Shown: positions 36,793 through 37,797 of the stretch, piece after piece
How positions within the stretch are numbered: the stretch's first letter is position 1
Layout: each line of letters opens with the position of its first letter
Notes under the pieces: model-generated
What the model was told of the DNA's origin: nothing
Databases searched by the model: none
Seen by the model: only the letters and a program-made list of their open reading frames with translations
Assembly (NCBI GenBank): GCA_029940475.1
Contig: JAPYUT010000005.1
Span: 1 to 64,000, forward strand
DNA: 64,000 nucleotides
Reading direction: 5' to 3'
Source: Verrucomicrobiales bacterium
Lineage (GTDB): Bacteria > Verrucomicrobiota > Verrucomicrobiia > Verrucomicrobiales > DEV007
Program-made: the position numbers and the translations under genes

Positions 36793-37797
36793 GTGAGCTC
36801 AAAGAATAAATCATTTCATCAGAGCCGGGGAAGAGCCGCGGTTATGTTTGCGGTGATTCCACTGGCCTGTATTGCGCACATTATCTGGGGGCTTTTTTTC
36901 GGCGGGCGGCAACAATGGCCCGTTGTGGAAATGGTTTTGATTACAGCTGCCGTGATTTCACTGTTGCGCATGCTGGTGGTCAAGCCCTTTCGGTATGGAT
37001 TACTAACGCTTAATATTTTTGCCTGGTTGCTTGCGGGCGGCTTCCTGTGGTGGACCCAGGTTTATTCATCTTACCCGAAAATGAACGCGAAGATAAGTGT
37101 GGGGGAAAATATTGCGGGGCGGTTTTCCTCTTTCGAAACAACGGCAGTATCGGGGCTTCGTGCCGCGCCGGTTAACGATGGCGACAGGCCCTCAGAGATG
37201 GCACCCGCGCCGATCAAAATTGAGCTGGCGCTCCCGGAGGAGGAGGAAATATTTCTGGACGCCTCCGGTAAATCTTTTCACTTAACACCCGCACCCGTCA
37301 CGGCACAGGAAAAAATAACAAGCACCGTCCCGGCAAGGAGTGGCGGCGCGATAGCGCTTAGACAGGCTCCATTTTTGGATCAATCAGCTGCGACGCTGGT
37401 GGTGTTTTTTCGTGGGTGGTGGTGACCCTTTTGCATAGGGGAGCTGGTGCAGCTGCAAAAGGAATATTCAAAATTCAAGGATGCTGGAATTGAAATTTTG
37501 GCGATCTCCGCCGGCTCTCCCGAGGATGCCCAAAAAGCAAAAAAATTATCCGGCGCCGAGTTTGAAGTGCGGGTCGATGAATCGGGGCAGATAATGGATC
37601 AGTTTGGACTGCGCGATATTGCCGGTAATCCATTTACCGGAGAAGATGTTGCCCGTGCTGCGACATTGCTTGTTTCCCGGCAAGGCAAGCTACTTTGGGC
37701 AAAATACGCAGAGAATTATCGCGTGAGAATGAAAGTTGATCATCTCTTGTTGCTGGCGCAGAACGCCTTGCTGGCGCACCGCCAATCCGACCGATAA
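36793..37797 (+). CDS. Membrane-anchored peroxiredoxin-like selenoprotein (UxxC)
   Basis: One open frame of 334 residues if TGA at 37423-37425 is read as selenocysteine (U211). Three N-terminal membrane segments (about 16-37, 44-63 and 67-88) are followed by a periplasmic-facing linker and a redoxin domain. The sequence around the TGA reads 'LVVFFRGWW-U-PFC', where AhpC/TSA-like relatives have 'RGWWCP(F/Y)C', so Sec replaces the first active-site Cys and C214 is the partner. Downstream, 'ENYRVRMKVDHLL' is the usual tail of this family. Codon frame is unbroken on both sides. GTG at 36793 has AAAGGG six bases upstream; an ATG at 36718 would overlap the HAD gene. It is a putative periplasmic thiol peroxidase or reductase. 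It is convergent with mnmG; no sel genes are in the window. Confidence 0.83.
37423..37425 (+). other. Recoded TGA (selenocysteine codon)
   Basis: The only stop codon in the 334-codon frame sits exactly at the first redox cysteine position, with a SECIS-like hairpin starting two bases later. Sense-codon mutation or sequencing error (TGC or TGT to TGA) is the alternative. Confidence 0.8.
37427..37462 (+). promoter_or_regulatory. Candidate bacterial SECIS element
   Basis: CCTTTTGCA (37427-37435) and TGCAAAAGG (37454-37462) form a perfect 9-bp lower stem. Inside it, GCTG (37443-37446) and CAGC (37450-37453) pair around a GTG loop (37447-37449), with a 7-nt bulge on the 5' side only. The apical loop starts 21 nt after the TGA and begins with G, within the range for bacterial SECIS hairpins that bind SelB. 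Confidence 0.75.

Follow-up and report, generated by a model that had tools for sequence, protein, structure and literature searches.

The window, a 64,000-nucleotide stretch at the start of a contig from a Verrucomicrobiales bacterium, holds on its forward strand an open reading frame that continues through a single TGA (37423-37425) and would encode a Prx-like selenoprotein of 317 amino acids (36844..37797, from an ATG at 36844; an in-frame GTG at 36793 is an alternative start upstream). With the TGA translated as an amino acid, the upstream frame, which ends at 37425, runs on into a downstream frame of 116 amino acids. Read as selenocysteine, the TGA would supply the first residue of U-P-F-C, where a CPFC motif has its first Cys (local motif W-U-P-F-C), and relatives carry TGA at exactly this position, with Cys in one. 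The Pfam AhpC-TSA domain (PF00578) matches across the TGA (E 8e-17; 61.8 bits against a cut-off of 26). No NCBIfam model reached its cut-off for the 317-aa protein, the best being SelL_rel_redox (NF040769; 37.4 versus 120 bits), the TxxU active site of the Sec-containing peroxiredoxin proper is absent, and a plasmid search returned distant peroxiredoxin-like matches only.

In the predicted structural model, three transmembrane helices are followed by a linker of low confidence and by a thioredoxin-fold domain with the UxxC motif; U194 stands at the start of a helix (195-206). Peroxiredoxins Bcp/PrxQ and AhpE ranked first among solved structures in a fold search; by sequence, the nearest solved structure was ResA, with U aligned to the first Cys of its CxxC. 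The N terminus and the loop between the second and third helices are rich in Lys and Arg, and three helices with positive charges inside suggest that the thioredoxin-fold domain lies on the periplasmic side. From established knowledge we infer that the protein acts either as a thiol:disulfide oxidoreductase or as a thiol peroxidase.

Directly after the TGA, and separated from it by one base (C37426), lies a nested hairpin (37427-37462). Read directly from the sequence, CCTTTTGCA (37427-37435) and TGCAAAAGG (37454-37462) form nine Watson-Crick pairs, and the inner stem pairs GCTG (37443-37446) with CAGC (37450-37453) around a G-first GUG loop (37447-37449) that begins 21 nt from the UGA. The first-pass annotation had described both this perfect 9-bp stem 1 nt after the UGA and the inner stem with its loop, and RNAfold reproduces exactly the same structure (-14.3 kcal/mol). 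The arms of the outer stem are CCUUUUGCA and UGCAAAAGG, and U37454 can pair in either stem: an alternative A37442-U37454 pair, in competition with the innermost pair of the outer stem, lengthens the apical stem to 5 bp (AGCUG, 37442..37446; CAGCU, 37450..37454; written through, AGCUG-GUG-CAGCU). It is this apical stem that the relatives conserve, and 27 of 28 TGA relatives have a G at the first or second position of the loop, the putative SelB contact.

Published criteria for bacterial SECIS elements (bSECIS) call for a stem-loop directly 3' of an in-frame UGA, with an upper stem of 4-16 bp, a loop of 3-9 nt with a G among its first two nucleotides, a UGA-loop spacing of 16-37 nt and an MFE of at most -7.5 (PMC13188914). 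The window hairpin, its upper stem no shorter than 4 bp, with a GUG loop, a 21-nt spacing and -14.3 kcal/mol, does have the spacing and loop identity that had been put forward as those of bacterial SECIS elements; taken together, however, the same criteria hold at 1092 of the 2120 TGAs of the window on both strands (52%), so spacing and loop G are not diagnostic alone, and we rejected the criteria as proof. Single-sequence folding was also rejected as proof: against dinucleotide shuffles the 66-nt fold showed no excess stability (z = 0.29), with 122 of 200 shuffles equally good. Against synonymous-codon shuffles, the first 48 nt folded marginally better (MFE p = 0.034), an outer stem of at least 9 bp was similarly uncommon (p = 0.037), and the apical hairpin alone reached p = 0.10. 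Perfect 9-bp stems that open within a few nucleotides of the codon were seen for 2 of the 2120 TGAs; the pairing that had been singled out is rare, and it is mostly unconserved. An Rfam scan of 37300-37600 gave no relevant match. The window hairpin alone is weak evidence, and the comparative evidence decides.

Among 58 genomes of the same family, 25 had a match to the protein, and in 23 of these (22 besides the window's own) a TGA stands at the motif position; the remaining two encode Cys, one of them (G008) in a more distant protein. The TGA relatives share 21-55% identity and their frames are otherwise open. In the alignment, R-G-x-W-[U/C]-P-x-C is invariant, and the TGA is aligned with Cys, not Trp. 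Searching the order and the phylum with profiles brought up more TGA cases, from two additional families (one genome, G187, and a pair, G210 and G348). SelB was found in 18 of the 23 carrier genomes, the five lacking a match all being at most 85% complete; when the count was restricted to genomes of 90% completeness or more, SelB was present in 13 of 13 carriers versus 8 of 24 non-carriers (Fisher p = 7e-5, related sequences being treated as independent).

In each of 28 TGA sequences and 85 Cys homologues we scored the best apical hairpin (minimum stem 4 bp; loop of 3-6 nt with a G at its first or second position) against synonymous-codon shuffles. The TGA set had a hairpin in 27 of 28 cases, with a mean score of 14.6 versus 5.2 for shuffles and a mean MFE z of -1.55, whereas the Cys set had one in 45%, with a mean of 4.3 versus 4.0 and a z of -0.19 (p = 1.7e-13 for the difference between the two sets, with related sequences treated as independent and the Cys set more distant). 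The Cys sequences as a class thus lack any excess over synonymous shuffles, in keeping with what the first-pass annotation had expected of them. The two observations that it had named as counting against a SECIS element do occur, each to a minor extent: 13% of the Cys sequences reach the high-score class, and one of the 28 TGA relatives lacks a perfect hairpin. That relative (L029) has an A.C mismatch in the stem; because the gene contains Ns, assembly quality may be the cause.

Within the register seen in the window, 86.5% of apical-stem cells are paired, falling to at most 45% when the register is slid by 1-3 nt. Compensatory changes occur at three of six apical-stem pairs (C-G to U-A, G-C to A-U and G-C to C-G), as had been proposed as a check, and appear at the codon level as covariation from GAG-CUG..CAG-CUx to GAG-UUG..CAA-CUx and to GAA-CUG..CAG-UUC. 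Among the relatives the outer 9-bp stem was found not to be conserved, with 65% of cells paired over the seven pairs tested; the conserved element is the 5-6-bp apical stem and not the outer stem. Equivalent hairpins also occur in two other registers. A second group of relatives has CUGCAA-GGU-UUGCAG three bases further on, with one compensatory change (A-U to G-C), although pair counting inside this group alone met too little variation to decide; a third pair of sequences (L158 and L159) has AACUCCG-AGUUG-CGGAGUU further upstream, as read from the sequence. The residues beneath the three registers differ accordingly (ELVQL, ELQGLQ and SELRSF). The register shifts among relatives with the G loop kept. 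Selection on the RNA is the simplest reading of this pattern.

Two related genomes also encode a second, apparently soluble paralog of AhpC/TSA type (L045/L156 in G035; L157 in G020), with SADWU-P/G-FC and a TGA followed by a strong hairpin. The paralog hairpins, GCAGCU-GGUCG-AGCUGC and GCAACU-GGUCG-AGUUGC, are compensatory between the two.

The only Cys ortholog (L026, from genome G056) branches within Sec proteins, with L025 and L028 (support 0.967), and the same scoring found no hairpin after its Cys position. It appears to record one clear switch from Sec to Cys with loss of the hairpin, as the first-pass annotation had predicted. Its genome still encodes SelB, presumably kept for other selenoproteins.

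The genome that contains the window has the genes for decoding selenocysteine: a tRNA-Sec with anticodon TCA (UCA), SelA (483 bits), SelB (327.6 bits over the cut-off) and SelD are all present. SelD has an in-frame TGA of its own (CGUAAKIDPVG; locus position 1528) with a CCC-GGUC-GGG hairpin after it, which makes it a probable selenoprotein as well, in a form already known for SelD. A second SelB-like match (L010, C27:86812-87945), at 186 bits and below the cut-off, covers 336 of 581 positions in a 421-aa frame, and a weak match to the tRNA-Sec model lies at C27:88116, less than 200 bases away; these are probably EF-Tu and an ordinary tRNA.

We put at about 95% the probability that 37427-37462 forms a bacterial SECIS element for a UxxC Prx-like selenoprotein. 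The mRNA would encode a membrane-anchored, thioredoxin-fold Prx-like oxidoreductase with an in-frame UGA and the SECIS hairpin directly after it; from established knowledge, SelB carrying Sec-tRNA(Sec) would bind the G-containing apical loop and stem and bring selenocysteine to the ribosome when it reaches the UGA, so that the product has the redox motif U-P-F-C in place of C-P-F-C. Homology of the frame across the UGA, conservation of the UGA, the covarying apical hairpin and its absence in Cys homologues, together with the Sec machinery, argue for this at the level of sequence. Were the UGA instead a real stop or a lesion (a pseudogene or a sequencing error) and the hairpin a coincidence of codons, the lack of significance under dinucleotide shuffles and the 52% of window TGAs that pass the bSECIS criteria would be as expected; this is nonetheless very improbable, and is in effect refuted by the TGA kept in divergent relatives with otherwise open frames, and further opposed by the covariation and the complete Sec machinery.

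Readthrough of another kind, with the UGA read as Trp or Cys in the lineage or by a near-cognate suppressor and the hairpin serving another purpose such as pausing, draws on the fact that the Sec reading of the UGA comes from sequence; it too is highly unlikely, because the neighbouring mnmG gene has TGA as its stop codon, so that this genome uses UGA for termination as well, because the TGA is aligned with Cys rather than Trp, and because the Sec machinery is present and SelB tracks the gene. Just as little probability attaches to a true selenoprotein whose hairpin is kept by amino-acid constraint (ELVQL) alone and not as RNA structure. The p of only 0.10 for the window's apical hairpin fits that idea, but across the TGA set the hairpin score is almost threefold above synonymous shuffles, codon choices covary, and relatives with ELQGLQ or SELRSF have the hairpin in another register.

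The mechanism is well known, and the subfamily is without coverage in the curated protein models searched. Standard annotation would end the enzyme immediately ahead of the catalytic residue and list the remainder as a separate ORF. We consider it reasonably likely that the locus represents an uncurated Prx-like subfamily, membrane-anchored, almost always dependent on Sec and with its centre in one Verrucomicrobiales family, in which the SECIS element moved between three registers with its G loop and function kept and was lost in one Sec-to-Cys switch. The family would be a well-supported membrane-anchored selenoprotein in a phylum unmentioned by the selenoproteome papers searched, and its Sec and Cys orthologs with three hairpin registers would form a compact natural data set on how coding constraint and SECIS structure coexist.

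Compared with described bSECIS elements (PMC13188914), the window hairpin likewise lies inside the coding region, 3' of the UGA, with a 3-nt apical loop starting GU, and nothing in it falls outside that model; its long, AU-rich, perfect outer stem is mostly missing in relatives. Its assignment to this class is consistent with a structure that selection appears to maintain in TGA genes and that the Cys homologues lack. UxxC Prx-like selenoproteins are likewise established, as "Prx-like 1" of the Global Ocean Sampling set (PMC2398784) and as the Prx-like family (PMC1088965). The protein described here shares with them an AhpC-TSA domain (PF00578) with a UxxC motif, but differs in its three predicted N-terminal transmembrane helices and variable linker, Prx-like 1 having been compared by its description. 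With the ResA/TlpA-type membrane-anchored thiol-disulfide oxidoreductases it has in common a membrane anchor, a thioredoxin fold and a U that aligns with the leading Cys of the CxxC in ResA, and it differs from them in having three transmembrane helices, Sec for Cys, and peroxiredoxins first in the fold search.
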